Source: a virus
Virus record (IMG/VR): IMGVR_UViG_3300042429_000733
Coordinates: 1 to 30,137 of that record
Length of the DNA stretch: 30,137 bases
Direction: 5' to 3' (one strand)
Both the position numbers and the translations under genes were made by a program. This document shows, piece after piece, positions 477 through 8,926 of the stretch. Under the pieces are notes generated by a model that was given only the letters and a program-made list of their open reading frames with translations, was not told where the DNA came from and did not search any database. The first letter of the stretch is position 1. Each line of letters starts with the position of its first letter.

Positions 477-567
477 AATCAAGTGGCGGAATTGGTAGAC
501 GCTACCCATTATATGTGGGGATACTGAGTTAAAAACAGTGGTAAGGGTTCGAATCCTTTTTTGATTA
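477..567 (+). tRNA. class II tRNA, Leu-like, anticodon unclear
   Basis: Acceptor AATCAAG/TTTGATT pairs over seven positions (one G-U). The D arm GCG-GAATTGGTAGA-CGC is typical of bacterial tRNA-Leu. The T arm is AAGGG-TTCGAAT-CCTTT and discriminator A is at 567. At 91 nt it is long. The hairpin after the D arm (CCCA-TTATATG-TGGG) would give an implausible anticodon AUA with U37. The next hairpin (ACTGA-GTTAAAA-ACAGT) would place a proper leucine anticodon UAA with A37, leaving the first hairpin as an insertion. I therefore call the isotype Leu-like but leave the anticodon open. CCA is not encoded. Confidence 0.7.
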
Positions 568-571
568 CTTA

Positions 572-646
572 GGTCCTATAGCTCAGTTGGTTAGTAGCAT
601 CTGACTCATAATCAGAGGGTCGCAGGTTCGAGTCCTGCTGGGACCA
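572..646 (+). tRNA. tRNA with CAU anticodon (Met elongator or Ile2)
   Basis: The cloverleaf is clear: acceptor GGTCCTA/TGGGACC, D arm beginning AGCTCAGTTGGTTAG, anticodon arm TCTGA-CTCATAA-TCAGA with CAU, T arm GCAGG-TTCGAGT-CCTGC, discriminator A at 646. CCA is not encoded. The D arm has one extra base (TTAGTAGC), shortening its stem to three strong pairs. CAU could be elongator Met, or Ile2 if the host lysidine synthase modifies C34. AUA codons are frequent in this AT-rich genome, which would make Ile2 useful, but sequence alone does not decide. Confidence 0.85.
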
Positions 647-686
647 CTATTTTAATAATACACGTCATATATAAAAAAACACAATT

Positions 687-2888: not shown

Positions 2889-2942
2889 ATTCGGGATTAG
2901 GTTGACAATCCGTTATAAAACTGTGGTTTCCTAACACCGAAT
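2889..2942 (+). ncRNA. stem-loop between the twin promoters
   Basis: ATTCGG-GA-TTAGG (2889-2901) can pair with CCTAA-CA-CCGAAT (2930-2942), giving 11 pairs around a GA/CA internal loop. It would be the first element of RNA started at the upstream promoter. An A-rich stretch follows, not a T run, so it is not an intrinsic terminator on this strand. Its role is unknown; it may distinguish the longer transcript from the shorter one. Confidence 0.45.
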
Positions 2943-2998: not shown

Positions 2999-3926
2999 CA
3001 AATCGGAAATGTCCGAGACGTTCTTTGAAACAAAAAGATTATCCATTTGGTGAAAGTAATCCTTCGGGATAATGATAACCGATAAATGATAATGGGCCGT
3101 GTATGGTCCTTAAATAAACTACGAAAGTAGGATAAAGTGATCTCCCTCGTGTTGAGGAGATTGCGGTTTGAAACTCACCTTTTGGTAGGGATTGAGCTCA
3201 AGTACACAAGTGGGATATCACCAAACCTTCAGTACCGAGGATAACTTCGTAGGGAAAATGGTAGGGTGACCTGGCAAAGTAGATTGTCAGGTTGAACTCG
3301 GAAGAGTAATAAGAATAACCCATAGGAACTCTGTAAGAAATGTGACCATCCAGTTACACTATTGCGGGTCCCAATATGATAGAGGACTTAAAACCGAAAG
3401 GTAAGATAGAGAACGAGTGGTGTCGCTACTATCCCTAAAGACTGATCTACCAAGATCTCTTTATGAAGTAATCTTAAAATATGGAGGTGGGGACACTTCA
3501 CGGAGTAGTTTAGTATTTCGTTTCTCAAAAGGAAACGAAGCTTACGGTGGACCACTACTCTGACACATCTACAACACAAAACTTATGGATTCCAAAATTA
3601 TCCAATAATTAAAAAATACATTAAGGAAAAGTGTCCATTAGGTTTGAGTGAAAGGTGACTACATAGTAATGAGCCGTTCATTGCACACAGAGACCCCAAG
3701 TCAATGTGTATTGTTAAGAAAGACCTTTAGTCCCGCAAGGACGAACTGGGACGGCAGTCTCAAAAAGAGTTAAGTATTGATAGAGTAATTCAAACCTTAA
3801 GGAGTGGTAAACCTAAAATACCGTCACTGAGTATTACTTCTCAAAAGGAAGTGGATAAGAAGGGAAACAATAATCCTTCAAAAGATAACTCACAAAAAAC
3901 TGTAATCTCAGGTTTTTATTTTTTTT
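2999..3926 (+). ncRNA. candidate giant structured noncoding RNA (GOLLD/ROOL-like)
   Basis: About 0.93 kb with no coding potential on either strand (only short shadow frames), higher G+C than its surroundings, and driven by two consensus promoters. Many clean hairpins are visible: ATCC-TTCG-GGAT (3059-3070, stable UUCG loop); CTAC-GAAA-GTAG (3119-3130, GNRA loop); ACCTGGCAA/TTGTCAGGT (3269-3292); TTCGTTTC/GAAACGAA (3517-3539) and ACTTC/GAAGT (3836-3852), the last two with the same seven-base loop TCAAAAG; GAAGG/CCTTC (3859-3879). An intrinsic terminator ends it. Size, ornate folding, phage context and tRNAs nearby are the known traits of GOLLD and ROOL RNAs, phage-associated RNAs reported to assemble into multimeric cages. 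I cannot align to either family, so it may be a new class. The 5' end is inferred from the promoter; the 3' end could instead be the terminator at 3957-3984. Confidence 0.7.
3895..3926 (+). terminator. first intrinsic terminator of the large ncRNA
   Basis: AAAAA-CTG (3895-3902) pairs with CAG-(G)-TTTTT (3909-3917) around TAATCT, followed by a T-rich run to 3926. The stem is A-U rich but the T tract is long. Confidence 0.6.
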
Positions 3927-3956
3927 AAGTAAACTTACTAATATAAAGAAACTAAC

Positions 3957-3984
3957 AGGGCCGATGTGAATCGTCCCTTTTTTT
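3957..3984 (+). terminator. second intrinsic terminator downstream of the large ncRNA
   Basis: AGGG-c-CGAT (3957-3965) pairs with ATCG-t-CCCT (3970-3978) around loop GTGA, followed by seven T. It is stronger than the first and faces the convergent tmRNA. Confidence 0.8.
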
Positions 3985-4064: not shown

Positions 4065-4071
4065 TAAATAG

Positions 4072-4467
4072 TGGAGGTGCGGAGACTCGAACTCCGGTCC
4101 AGTATATCCTGTCAGATAAGGACTACACGTTTAGATCAAGGTTTTTCATACCTTCCGAAATATCTGAGTTCTCACACCGCTCAGCGACGGTGACAGTCCT
4201 TACGGGGAACCATACCCGTTTTGTTTTCTTTTAGAGAGAAAACCAACTCGTCAACGACTTCTGTTGCTAGGTTATATGTCTGCCGACCCCCCGTTTCCGT
4301 AAACCTCTTAGGCTACAGTAACTTCAGATTCTCTTAGTAAACCAAGAGTTTCCATTTTGTTCAAAACGTTGCCGTCTATAAATGTGAATCAGTTTTTTAG
4401 GAGATTAATTCAGTCTCCACGTGCCCTTGATCCTCAGCCAATACCTGTCAAATCCAAAAACACCCCC
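4072..4467 (-). ncRNA. ssrA: phage-encoded tmRNA
   Basis: Read on the minus strand, the 5' end GGGGGTG pairs with CACCTCC at the 3' end (seven pairs, one G-U), with discriminator A at 4072. The T arm is CGGAG-TTCGAGT-CTCCG. The conserved 5' block GGATTTGACAGG closely matches the tmRNA signature. The 396-nt length is normal, and the middle contains G- and C-rich blocks suited to pseudoknots. The terminal CCA is not encoded and must be added. The tag frame (4308-4373) opens after a TAGAC-type upstream element. tmRNA rescues stalled ribosomes and marks the incomplete product for proteolysis. It has its own host-type promoter and terminator and lies antisense to no real gene. Confidence 0.92.
4308..4373 (-). 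other. tmRNA tag-encoding frame
   Basis: From resume codon GGC (4373-4371) to stop TAA (4310-4308) the frame encodes 21 residues: it begins GNVLNKMETL and ends RESEVTVA. The alternative frame (GCA ACG TTT TGA) would give only ATF. Usual bacterial tags end in ALAA or LAA and are about 8-15 residues in this phylum; this one ends TVA and is long. The resume codon is inferred from its position after the TATAGAC element. Confidence 0.65.
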
Positions 4468-5946: not shown

Positions 5947-6732
5947 ATGGAACGAAATTATGAATTATTGAAAGAGGTATTATCCGTACCCACAAAAACT
6001 TATCAGGAAGAAAAAATGGTTCAATTTATCACAAATTGGTTAACCGAAAACAATATCCCTTTTTATGTTGACGAAATGTCAAACATTTACGCAACAAAAC
6101 AAACCGACGAAAACGTATTGTATTTCCCATGTGTGATTGCACATACTGATACGGTACATAACATTGATACAATTAATGTTGTAGAGGAAATGTTACCTGA
6201 TGCTCAGGGTAATGTAAAATTATCACTAAAGGCGTATAACGACAATGATGAACCAACAGGTATTGGTGGCGATGATAAATGTGGTATATACGGTTGTTTG
6301 GAATTATTGAATGAATTACCTAATCTAAAGGCCGCATTTTTTGTGTCTGAGGAAACTGGTTGTAAAGGATCATTTAAGGCGGATCCTGAGTTTTTTATGA
6401 ATGTTGGTTATGGAATTCAATTTGACGCTCCTGAAAACAATATGATCTCTGAGTTTTTGATGGGAAGAAGTATGTTTGATCGTGATAGTAAATTCTTTGA
6501 AGTTGGTGGTAGATTGATTACAGAACACTTTCCATCTGATACCAAATATCACAAACATCCTTACACGGACATATACCCTATCAGAACGATGTTTAACATA
6601 CCTTGTTTCAACATATCCATTGGATACTACAACTACCATACAAGAAACGAATACGTGGTCGTAGATGACACTTACAACGGTATTAAAGTTGGTAAGATGA
6701 TGATTGAAGAGTTAGGTTACGAAAAACACTAA
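5947..6732 (+). CDS. M20/M28-like di-zinc peptidase (peptidase T-like)
   Basis: A 261-residue cytoplasmic metallopeptidase. The di-zinc site of this clan is complete: H66 and D68 in AHTDTVH, D109 or D110 in GIGGDDKCG, the catalytic glutamate pair E135-E136 in VSEETGCKGS, D160 in IQFDAP, and H231 in YYNYHTRNEYV. It is shorter than typical M20 enzymes (about 350-450 residues) because the small lid/dimer domain is mostly missing, so it may be a minimal catalytic-domain form. Such enzymes release amino acids from short peptides or trim N-termini. It converges on the ClpC-like gene across a shared terminator, which suggests, as inference, that it recycles peptides made by Clp proteolysis. A precise substrate cannot be named. 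Confidence 0.85.
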   Translation: MERNYELLKEVLSVPTKTYQEEKMVQFITNWLTENNIPFYVDEMSNIYATKQTDENVLYFPCVIAHTDTVHNIDTINVVEEMLPDAQGNVKLSLKAYNDNDEPTGIGGDDKCGIYGCLELLNELPNLKAAFFVSEETGCKGSFKADPEFFMNVGYGIQFDAPENNMISEFLMGRSMFDRDSKFFEVGGRLITEHFPSDTKYHKHPYTDIYPIRTMFNIPCFNISIGYYNYHTRNEYVVVDDTYNGIKVGKMMIEELGYEKH

Positions 6733-6736
6733 ATAA

Positions 6737-6762
6737 AAAAAGGGAGATTATTCTCCCTTTTT
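6737..6762. terminator. bidirectional terminator between convergent genes
   Basis: AAAAAGGGAG (6737-6746) pairs with CTCCCTTTTT (6753-6762) around ATTATT. It has T runs on both strands and serves the peptidase (plus) and ClpC-like (minus) transcripts; the ClpC-like stop codon lies within it. Confidence 0.85.
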
Positions 6763-8811
6763 CTTTCTACTAACTTTTTTCTTAGGTTCTTCTTTTGTTC
6801 TTTCTTCAATGTTGATGATCTCTTCATCATTTTCTGTTTTTACAAATAACATATATTCTTTGTTTTCACTAACTTCTCCTGTTAGAATTTTTTCAGAAAT
6901 TAAATCTTCAATTTTATTTTGAATTGCTCTTTTTATTGGTCTTGCTCCAAACACCTCATCAAAACCAACTTTAGAAATCAAATCAATTACTGAATCTTCA
7001 TACGTAAAATTGTATTTCATGGATTTTAATCGTTTAACTAAAATATCAATTTCCAACTTAACAATTTTATCAATGTTATCTTTATTAAGTGAATTAAAGA
7101 TTACCACATCATCAATTCTATTTAAGAATTCAGGTGCGAAAAATTTACTAAGTTCTTTTTTAAGAATATCACGTTTTTTCTCTTCCTGAACAACATCACT
7201 TGAGTTACTTGTTTTAAATCCAACCCCTGTTCCAAAATCTTGTAATTTTTTAACCCCAATGTTAGATGTCATAATGATCAAACAATTCTTAAAATTGATC
7301 TTTCTTCCCAAGCCATCAGTTAAGTGACCATCATCCAACATTTGTAATAGTGTTGAGAATATGTCTTTATTTGCCTTTTCAATCTCATCAAATAAAATCA
7401 CACAGTAAGGTTTGTTTTTAACTTGTTCTGTAAGTTGACCACCTTCTTCGTGACCGACGTATCCTGGAGGAGATCCAATCAATCTTGAGATTGTATGTTT
7501 CTCTTGGTATTCAGACATATCAACACGGATAAGACTATCTACACTTCCGAAGATTTCTTTAGCCAATTGTTTTGCCAAGAATGTTTTACCGACACCTGTT
7601 GACCCTAAAAATATAAATGATCCGATTGGACGATTTGGATCCTTAATCCCCACACGATTTCTTCTAATTGATTTTGAAATTTTACCAACCGCATCTTCCT
7701 GTCCAATTACATTGGAGTTTAATGTTGATTCTAAATTAACCAAAGAATTCTTTTCGTCAATATTAATTTTATTTACAGGTATTTTAGTCATATTTGACAC
7801 CACCTCATAAATTAAACCATCAGGGATCCCACGTTTACTTGTTTTAAGTTCTTCGTCAAATTTTTTCTTTTCGGTGTCTAAATCCTTCAAAATTTTACGT
7901 TCCTTATCTCTAAGTTCTGCAGCTTGTTCGTAATTTTGTTTTTTGATTACGTCAACTTTTTCTTTTTTGATATCTTGAGCCTCTTGTTTTAGTTTTTCAA
8001 TAATTTCAGGTAGTTTAATGTCAATTTGCATTCTTGACCCAACCTCATCTAAAATGTCAAACGCTTTATCTGGAAACTCACGATCGGTAATATAACGATC
8101 TGCCAATTCCACACATAAACGTAATGATTCATCGGTGTAATAAACTTTATGATGTTCTTCGTATTTCCCCTTACTTTGTTTAAGTATTTCAAATGTTTCT
8201 TCTTTGGAAGATGGGTCAACAACGATCTTTTGGAATCTTCTTTCTAACGCACCATCCTTTTCAAAATTTCTACGATACTCATCTAAAGTAGTTGCCCCAA
8301 TACATTGGATCTCACCACGAGACAATGCCGGTTTAAATATGTTGGACGCATCTAATGAACCTGAACTATTACCAGCTCCAACAATTGTGTGAATTTCATC
8401 AATAAAGATGATGATATTTGGTGAGGCCTGAAGTTCTTCAATGATAATCTTCATTCTTTCTTCAAATTGACCTCTATATTTTGTACCCGCAACAACGGAG
8501 TTAATATCCAAAGATATGATTCTTTTATCAGATAGATTTTTTGGACATTCACCATTATGTATCATCATAGCGAGACCTTCAACAATTGCCGTTTTACCAG
8601 CACCTGGTTCACCAATAATTATTGGGTTATTTTTTTTTCTACGGGACAATACTTGGGCAATTCTAAAAATTTCTTTTTCACGACCAATTACAGGATCTAA
8701 TTTTCCTTCACTTGCCAATTTATTTAAATCCTTACTAAAGTTATCTAACACTGGAGTTCCTCCATCAGTCTTTTTCTTACCTTTATCGTTTTCATCCATA
8801 AATTCAATCAT
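6748..8811 (-). CDS. clpC: ClpC-like AAA+ unfoldase without N-domain
   Basis: A 687-residue double AAA+ ATPase. Residue positions are from ATG 8811; the frame opens at 8907 but the extra 32 residues overlap the operator-like region. AAA module 1: Walker A GEPGAGKT (67-74), Walker B FIDE (136-139), arginine finger in ALERRF (188-193). The middle region (about 280-312) contains a UVR-type motif (QNYEQAAELRDKE), diagnostic of ClpC. Module 2: Walker A GSTGVGKT (403-410), Walker B ILFDE (472-476). The loop DFGTGVGF (VGF at 530-532) matches the ClpP-docking motif of ClpC, so it should hand substrates to host ClpP. The N-terminal Clp_N repeats (about 140 residues) are missing, so substrate choice must depend on other parts or adaptors. 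The C-terminus is basic. No clpP is seen here. Confidence 0.93.
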   Translation of the reverse strand: MIEFMDENDKGKKKTDGGTPVLDNFSKDLNKLASEGKLDPVIGREKEIFRIAQVLSRRKKNNPIIIGEPGAGKTAIVEGLAMMIHNGECPKNLSDKRIISLDINSVVAGTKYRGQFEERMKIIIEELQASPNIIIFIDEIHTIVGAGNSSGSLDASNIFKPALSRGEIQCIGATTLDEYRRNFEKDGALERRFQKIVVDPSSKEETFEILKQSKGKYEEHHKVYYTDESLRLCVELADRYITDREFPDKAFDILDEVGSRMQIDIKLPEIIEKLKQEAQDIKKEKVDVIKKQNYEQAAELRDKERKILKDLDTEKKKFDEELKTSKRGIPDGLIYEVVSNMTKIPVNKINIDEKNSLVNLESTLNSNVIGQEDAVGKISKSIRRNRVGIKDPNRPIGSFIFLGSTGVGKTFLAKQLAKEIFGSVDSLIRVDMSEYQEKHTISRLIGSPPGYVGHEEGGQLTEQVKNKPYCVILFDEIEKANKDIFSTLLQMLDDGHLTDGLGRKINFKNCLIIMTSNIGVKKLQDFGTGVGFKTSNSSDVVQEEKKRDILKKELSKFFAPEFLNRIDDVVIFNSLNKDNIDKIVKLEIDILVKRLKSMKYNFTYEDSVIDLISKVGFDEVFGARPIKRAIQNKIEDLISEKILTGEVSENKEYMLFVKTENDEEIINIEERTKEEPKKKVSRKKKGE

Positions 8812-8863
8812 ATCTTTTTGTTTTCTTAAAAAGTAGTAAACCAATTTTAAAAAGTATACATTT

Positions 8864-8926
8864 TGACAAATTGTCATATAAAATTTTTTTAACTGACATA
8901 TTGACATATTTTATGTTTTGGCATAT
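8864..8926. promoter_or_regulatory. operator-like TGACATAT boxes in divergent promoter region
   Basis: Between the ClpC-like gene and the UVR-motif gene lie a perfect inverted repeat TGACA-AAT-TGTCA (8864-8876), two direct copies of TGACATAT (8894-8901 and 8902-8909) and a variant TGGCATAT (8919-8926). TGTCATAT at 8872-8879 is a fourth related box. The boxes overlap the plus-strand promoter at 8901-8931 and could bind a repressor that couples both genes. Confidence 0.5.

Follow-up and report, generated by a model that had tools for sequence, protein, structure and literature searches.

A phage gene for a GOLLD RNA with a leader hairpin and a boxA-like site resembling those of Bacteroidota rRNA operons

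We analyzed a stretch of viral DNA of 30,137 nucleotides (IMG/VR virus record IMGVR_UViG_3300042429_000733, positions 1 to 30,137; hereafter the window) and found that it contains a complete phage gene for an approximately 0.9-kb RNA of the known GOLLD family, an assignment that we regard as virtually certain. Membership of this family is in itself ordinary. As far as the literature was searched, the new observation is that the GOLLD RNA carries at its start a small hairpin followed by a boxA-like site, the arrangement seen in rRNA leaders of Bacteroidota: among the matches listed from the open-licence literature, no report joined GOLLD or ROOL with boxA, antitermination or NusB, and an earlier notice elsewhere is possible. 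The whole explanation, in which a GOLLD gene with an rRNA-type leader gives rise to a cage with a role around the translation machinery, appears reasonably likely to us. The features on which it is built are as follows:

477–647, plus strand: tRNA-Tyr and tRNA-Met genes (ARAGORN and Rfam)
2852–2856 (TTGAC) and 2874–2881 (TAACTTTG), plus strand: predicted outer promoter P1, Bacteroidota type (pattern TTG-N17–22-TAnnTTTG at −147 relative to 2999)
2889–2942, plus strand: predicted hairpin element between the promoters (ATTCGG...CCGAAT; fold −15.4 kcal/mol)
2964–2968 (TTGAC) and 2986–2993 (TACCTTTG), plus strand: predicted inner promoter P2, Bacteroidota type (sequence and conservation)
3003–3016, plus strand: leader hairpin just before boxA, in a boxB-like position (terminator scan; folding of single leaders)
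3020–3029, plus strand: boxA-like antitermination site GTTCTTTGAA (motif in 72 of 75 leaders; core word common before 16S genes)
3089–3500, plus strand: GOLLD 5′ domain, by analogy the cap domain, outside the Rfam model (29 of 111 predicted pairs covary)
3099–3103 with 3203–3207, plus strand: 5-bp loop pairing, a pseudoknot or an inter-chain kissing contact (complementary in 75 of 75 sequences)
3501–3914, plus strand: GOLLD 3′ domain, RF02032 (311.9 bits; 32 of 110 predicted pairs covary)
3563–3622, plus strand: variable linker, by analogy a disordered loop inside the cage (low conservation)
3625–3626 with loop 3696–3697, plus strand: kissing contact, by position the published bridge B7 (covaries)
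3731–3742, plus strand: L21a-like hairpin, loop CGCAA with self-complementary GC (GC in 73 of 75)
3899–3927, plus strand: last GOLLD hairpin (3899–3914) and T-rich tract, a weak intrinsic terminator (pairs 3899–3913 and 3900–3912 covary)
3957–3978, plus strand: second terminator-like hairpin, with seven T at 3978–3984 (fold −10.1 kcal/mol)
4069–4467, minus strand: phage tmRNA, a convergent neighbour (RF00023, 112.5 bits; ARAGORN)

The GOLLD covariance model of Rfam (RF02032) matched 3501–3914 on the plus strand with 311.9 bits against a cut-off of 150, covering model positions 1–416, that is, the whole model. The initial annotation had named GOLLD, had proposed a search with Rfam covariance models and had described the RNA as a divergent member or a new class. 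Membership was borne out by the search, whereas the idea of a new class was not, because the match spans the full model at about twice the cut-off; nor is the 3′ half divergent. No covariance-model match to ROOL was found over the region (Rfam, gathering threshold or E up to 1), and weak Rfam matches below the cut-off, such as BTnc060 with 29 of 228.9 bits, were dropped.

Relatives were collected from IMG/VR with a core pattern, which gave 98 stretches, and with two variant patterns, which gave 41 and 1 more; as these 98 and 42 viral stretches were picked by exact match to a 30-base core of the 3′ domain, the conservation of that core is partly selection. The 146 hits comprised 123 full-length sequences (starting at or before model position 100 and ending after 900), of which 75 were retained at 97% identity, the window included. 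Among GenBank phages searched with blastn, the uncultured huge phages LR745206 (635 kb) and LR756502 (642 kb) aligned with the 5′ as well as the 3′ half of the RNA; the matches of six Acinetobacter records lay in the 3′ half. In five of 13 records (Lactobacillus phages LP65 and Lb338-1, Flavobacterium phage immuto, Microcystis phage Mel-JY01 and LR756508) no GOLLD match was present. No Lactobacillales or mycobacterial GOLLD was found for a comparison of boxA. The pattern search returned no stretch among genome contigs, and plasmids gave no GOLLD match. RF02032 had no match in six named-locus and 198 Bacteroidota genomes, a scan in which the controls were silent too, so that absence is not implied. 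We presume that the clade of the window may belong to the lake sequences behind the GOLLD family name.

The absence of coding potential claimed for some 930 bases was confirmed in the window: the longest stop-free stretch in the six frames of 2999–3925 was 65 aa, and overlapping frames (67 aa and 63 aa) were found on the minus strand only. A long reading frame through the region, which would speak against a non-coding RNA, was thus not seen in the window; among the relatives the longest stop-free stretch had a median of 89 aa and a maximum of 157 aa, and on this point the claim is less clear-cut. The minimum free energy of 3000–3914 was −246.4 kcal/mol, compared with −213.9 ± 9.1 kcal/mol for 20 dinucleotide shuffles (z −3.56), and the predicted pairs were canonical in 96% (5′ domain) and 97% (3′ domain) of cells in the 75 aligned sequences, in agreement with the ornate structure described in the initial annotation. 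The two hairpins with the identical loop TCAAAAG noted there were located as well (loops at 3525–3531 and 3841–3847), both within hairpins of the RF02032 model.

Covariation was tested with our own script, written in the manner of R-scape (not R-scape itself) and using a tree-based null. Across the 75 sequences, the test of all pairs returned 36 pairs at E < 0.05, of which 32 were canonical in at least 80% of sequences and four were not base pairs; a first set of 52 sequences had given 19 significant pairs, 15 of them canonical. In the predicted structure, which was derived from the same alignment, 61 of 221 pairs covaried (5′ domain, 29 of 111; 3′ domain, 32 of 110), so that compensatory changes are present in the metagenomic homologues, the check that had been suggested for this region. 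As controls, sliding the partners by 1–3 columns reduced the canonical fraction to 34–46%, and shuffling the 3′ letters among sequences gave 84–85%. The 5′ domain outside the Rfam model is therefore a conserved structured domain too, and the arrangement is that of GOLLD, a conserved 3′ region after a less conserved structured 5′ region. The loop pairing 3099–3103/3203–3207 occurred in six versions (GUGUA/UACAC in 55 sequences, GUAUA/UAUAC in 10, GCCUA/UAGGC in five, GCUUA/UAAGC in three and two singletons), and pair 3101–3205 was significant in the all-pairs test. For the half of GOLLD that lies outside the Rfam model, covariation is now available from this alignment.

A second GOLLD copy provided a further comparison. 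The related record G001 matches 23.7 kb of the window at 99.3–99.99% and carries another GOLLD (322 bits) 16 kb upstream of the window-type copy. The two copies are 87% identical. Where paired positions differ between them, both partners have changed in 15 pairs and one partner in eight, and one pair is broken; because the differing pairs are mostly preserved, both copies look selected. The loops at presumed inter-chain contacts are identical in both copies, and 21 gaps of the paralogue alignment fall in 3563–3632. By synteny, a second-locus GOLLD was assigned in L047, L062, L095 and L051. In the tree the window copy grouped with the second-locus copies of L272, L047, L062 and L095 (support 0.99), with L051 outside, and because of this grouping it looks like a duplicate. 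Two GOLLD genes occurred only in G001 and in the palindromic G287 among 90 matching records, most of which are fragments, and both loci lay on one contig in G001 only. The double GOLLD of G287 (L242) was rejected as a paralogue pair, its copies having opposite orientation and identical scores, and was read as a palindromic assembly.

Two other accounts of the region can be set against these data. The short minus-strand frames that overlap it might suggest a decayed or protein-coding stretch whose structure arose by chance; covariation, however, lies far above the null and also above the slid and shuffled controls, and the pairs that differ between the paralogues were broken only once, which leaves this account extremely improbable. 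A new giant RNA class unrelated to GOLLD would fit the coverage of the Rfam model, which accounts for only 414 of the ~915 nt and leaves a 5′ domain that matches no Rfam family. Yet the 3′ match is full-length, and the 5′ domain is attached to it in 90 of 102 loci (nhmmer, 2999–3500); 11 of the other 12 loci end at a contig edge and one is the Acinetobacter phage L004. We consider an unrelated class just as improbable, and treat the region as a GOLLD gene in what follows.

The two promoters that had been claimed in front of the gene were recovered as predicted sites, P1 and P2, which match what we take to be the Bacteroidota promoter consensus. E. coli-type promoters were considered and rejected, a sigma-70 scan being at chance (three found, 3.5 expected). 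Of 75 relatives, 68 had the pattern TTG-N17–22-TAnnTTTG no more than 120 nt upstream, as against only eight of 1500 shuffled upstream regions; where 250 nt of upstream sequence was available (74 sequences), at least two such promoters were found in 18, the window included. Transcription from P2 would start near 3000. The hairpin at 2889–2942 resembles the longer stem between promoter and boxA in the leader of L079 (shared GTGGTTTCC part), and the leader of L050 is also concerned; the likeness is as if leader stems had been swapped between phages. At the 3′ end, the two claimed intrinsic terminators are present as hairpins with T tracts and are weaker than asserted: a generic terminator scan flagged neither of them, only the leader hairpin at 3003–3016 and a minus-strand site at 4065–4040. 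At least eight T within the 16 nt after AATCTCAG were found in 48 of 75 sequences.

Approximately 90 nt of leader precede the GOLLD core, in the order promoter, hairpin, GTTCTTT[GA]A. Of the first 52 leaders, 50 had this motif, as did 72 of the 75 pooled ones, a conservation among related, non-independent loci on which the case for boxA rests. The leaders without the exact motif were L056 (two mismatches), L262 (one mismatch) and L003. A second scan covered 42 loci, six of them too short; of the 36 that had 810 nt or more upstream, 35 carried the motif, in every case 711–802 nt before the core. Among the 67 leaders in which a −7 box was present, 54 had the motif starting 24–28 nt past it. Outside the leaders, 28 copies were counted in 553 kb of plus strand (first set); in the window alone GTTCTTTRA was not above chance (two found, 1.47 expected). 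No boxA was found in LR756502, nor a gammaproteobacterial-type boxA in 6.3 kb of the Acinetobacter phage locus L004. In L064, L095 and L002 boxA was kept where the rest of the leader was replaced. The form GTTCTTTAA occurs with an adjoining promoter in L005, L050, L059 and L079, and L253 also has GTTCTTTAA. Of the 72 boxA leaders, 68 by our count had a hairpin of −3.8 kcal/mol or lower between the −7 box and boxA, and its paired sequences varied (TCGG/CCGA, CAGG/CCTG, TTGG/CCAA). RNAalifold returned no consensus structure for the leader segment, the hairpins appearing only when single leaders were folded.

For comparison with rRNA leaders, 8-mers were counted, none preselected, in the 350 nt before 116 listed Bacteroidota 16S genes (119 loci), a sample. 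TTCTTTGA occurred before 45 and GTTCTTTG before 43 of the 116 genes; only A-rich words ranked higher, and the TTTGCACC words of the promoter ranked equally. Exact GTTCTTTGA preceded 43 of them, against 0.2 expected from mononucleotide shuffles; the other 73 listed leaders lacked it, and 33 carried AGTTCATT (the GTTCATT form), so that the boxA word matches only part of the phylum. The GOLLD leader thus holds, downstream of its promoter, the rRNA boxA sequence of the presumed host phylum. According to excerpts of PMC10250234, boxA and its neighbours in rRNA load an antitermination complex on RNA polymerase and aid subunit formation. GOLLD resembles rRNA in being a long, structured RNA that is not translated, and could plausibly need protection from Rho for that reason.

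By this analogy the boxA-like site is likely to be a Nus site. A different reading, which takes GTTCTTTGAAA for a conserved single-stranded segment of the RNA (a processing site, for instance, or a cage contact), could draw on its fixed distance from the promoter and on a conservation equal to that of GOLLD core elements. The motif nevertheless coincides with a word that is over-represented upstream of 16S genes in the presumed host phylum, shows the variation of boxA (TTTGA to TTTAA) and persists where neighbouring leader sequence has changed; GTTCTTTGACATATTGG copies, moreover, also stand at tRNA genes of four loci. We judge this reading unlikely and retain the Nus site. The GTTCTTTGACATATTGG copies are boxA-like and lie among the phage tRNA genes of L051, L035, L082 and L073, and the signal may therefore serve other phage stable RNAs.

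Contacts known from the GOLLD cage were sought in the 3′ domain, the published names being assigned by position and complementarity. In excerpts of PMC12286853, B7 is an intermolecular bridge of the cage, formed by an inter-chain kissing loop, and a GC/CG switch is reported at B8. Both a kissing pairing of L20 with J13/15 and a self-complementary L21a loop were found. At 3625–3626/3696–3697 the letters were GG/CC in 48, GC/GC in 24, UC/GA in two and GU/CC in one of 75 sequences; the shifted L21a-like loops of L002 and L003 had CG, like the published switch. Since the contact matching the published inter-chain kissing loop covaries, the RNA is likely to assemble into a cage. A tRNA inside the linker was looked for and rejected, ARAGORN placing none inside GOLLD in 102 loci. 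With two paralogues in the lineage, whether cages could be mixed becomes a concrete question.

The window, a bacteriophage fragment, encodes T4-like portal, terminase, head protease and major head proteins, and the gene has the phage or prophage location near tRNAs typical of GOLLD (tRNA-Tyr, tRNA-Met and tmRNA in the window; tRNA-Met adjoins GOLLD in many loci). Matches to the portal protein were found in 12 of 16 records searched: it is 100% identical in G001 (58,992 bases) and 74–82% identical in further large contigs of up to 304 kb, and because its relatives sit in such contigs the window is probably part of a jumbo phage. In G005 the portal match falls into three pieces within one 1343-codon open stretch, and LR756508 also gave three pieces; insertions or inteins are possible. 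The host, we infer from the TAnnTTTG promoters and the boxA comparison, would be a Bacteroidota bacterium; no host genome carrying the phage was found in genome contigs or in the 6 and 198 Bacteroidota genomes scanned. A tmRNA exceeded the cut-off in all ten large records (G001–G005, G010, G015, G022, G023 and G032) and lay 0.15–3.0 kb from GOLLD, convergently, in nine of them (far away in G002), the records having been chosen for size and a tmRNA near GOLLD being already known in G001 and G015. G004, G010 and G023 may be one phage, as their scores are identical. The two huge phages had no tmRNA over the cut-off.

The predicted phage tmRNA tags are long. That of the window is GNVLNKMETLGLLRESEVTVA (21 aa), and those of L316, L322, L324, L330 and L314 read GNV[LI]NK..., have 21–22 aa and end in SVA, AVA, TVA or VAA. 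Three readable tags from Bacteroidota genomes have 9 aa and end in ALAA or MAA. ARAGORN gave no tag or another frame for some of both kinds, so the tag calls are provisional. A Clp-type double AAA+ ATPase is encoded a few kb from the phage tmRNA at 6748–8907 on the minus strand (best NCBIfam matches ClpB and ClpA, all below curated cut-offs; phrog_4871, 'ATP-dependent protease') and could serve tagged proteins. Between it and the tmRNA lies an M20-like peptidase (5947–6732, plus strand; phrog_4191).

We propose that host RNA polymerase would start at one or both of the Bacteroidota-type promoters and that the first 30 nt of the inner transcript would present the hairpin and then boxA. NusB and S10 (NusE) may bind boxA, by analogy with rRNA operons, and the polymerase would then resist Rho termination along the untranslated structured RNA, perhaps also helping it to fold. 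Transcription would end at the last GOLLD hairpin or at the second hairpin. The RNA would fold into its 5′ and 3′ domains, as covariation shows, and copies would join through kissing loops into a hollow cage like that of env-38, as the conserved contacts suggest. From the context (tRNA, tmRNA and an rRNA-like leader), the RNA would most likely serve to hold or handle components of the translation machinery in the infected cell; we put this role in handling translation components forward tentatively, as a possibility on the doubtful side. A bolder version appears improbable to us. There, the GOLLD gene would be a counterfeit rRNA whose tandem-promoter, hairpin and boxA leader hijacks host rRNA antitermination, and two diverged GOLLD genes of one phage would form a mixed cage that, with the neighbouring phage tmRNA and tRNAs, handles ribosomes or their parts in the course of infection. 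Excerpts of Kretsch et al. (PMC12286853) report that some GOLLD linkers contain tRNAs and that ribosomes were recovered in GOLLD pull-downs, and work cited in PMC7567579, likewise seen as an excerpt, describes the GOLLD of a L. brevis prophage as accumulating in lytic infection and dispensable for phage production. An rRNA-type leader tells how much GOLLD the phage wants and by which machinery, links GOLLD to the biology of stable RNAs and ribosomes, and offers a testable proposal for its mass production by such phages.

Compared with known systems, the gene shares with Bacteroidota rRNA leaders a TAnnTTTG-type promoter, a short hairpin and boxA GTTCTTTGA, and differs in that its product is a phage non-coding RNA rather than rRNA, Nus binding being proposed by analogy. 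With respect to E. coli boxA, the GTTCTTTAA leaders carry the wording of its consensus, GYTCTTTAANA, as given in an excerpt of PMC5725501. A set of 806 non-redundant GOLLD RNAs is given by Kretsch et al. (2025, PMC12286853), who solved env-38 GOLLD as a 14-mer nanocage; the comparisons made here are with excerpts of that report. ROOL, according to the same excerpts, is likewise a phage-borne cage-forming RNA near tRNAs, and differs in having no family match in this region. With env-38, the window RNA shares the whole 3′ model, the conserved kissing contacts and the phage origin; the 3′ domains measure 414 and 413 nt (421–833 in env-38) and the 5′ domains, compared by length alone, 412 and 420 nt. 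Env-38 sits downstream of a Met-tRNA, as do L005 and related loci. Unlike env-38 as those excerpts describe it, the window RNA has a leader of ~90 extra nt with hairpin and boxA, a tmRNA neighbour and a second paralogue in its lineage.
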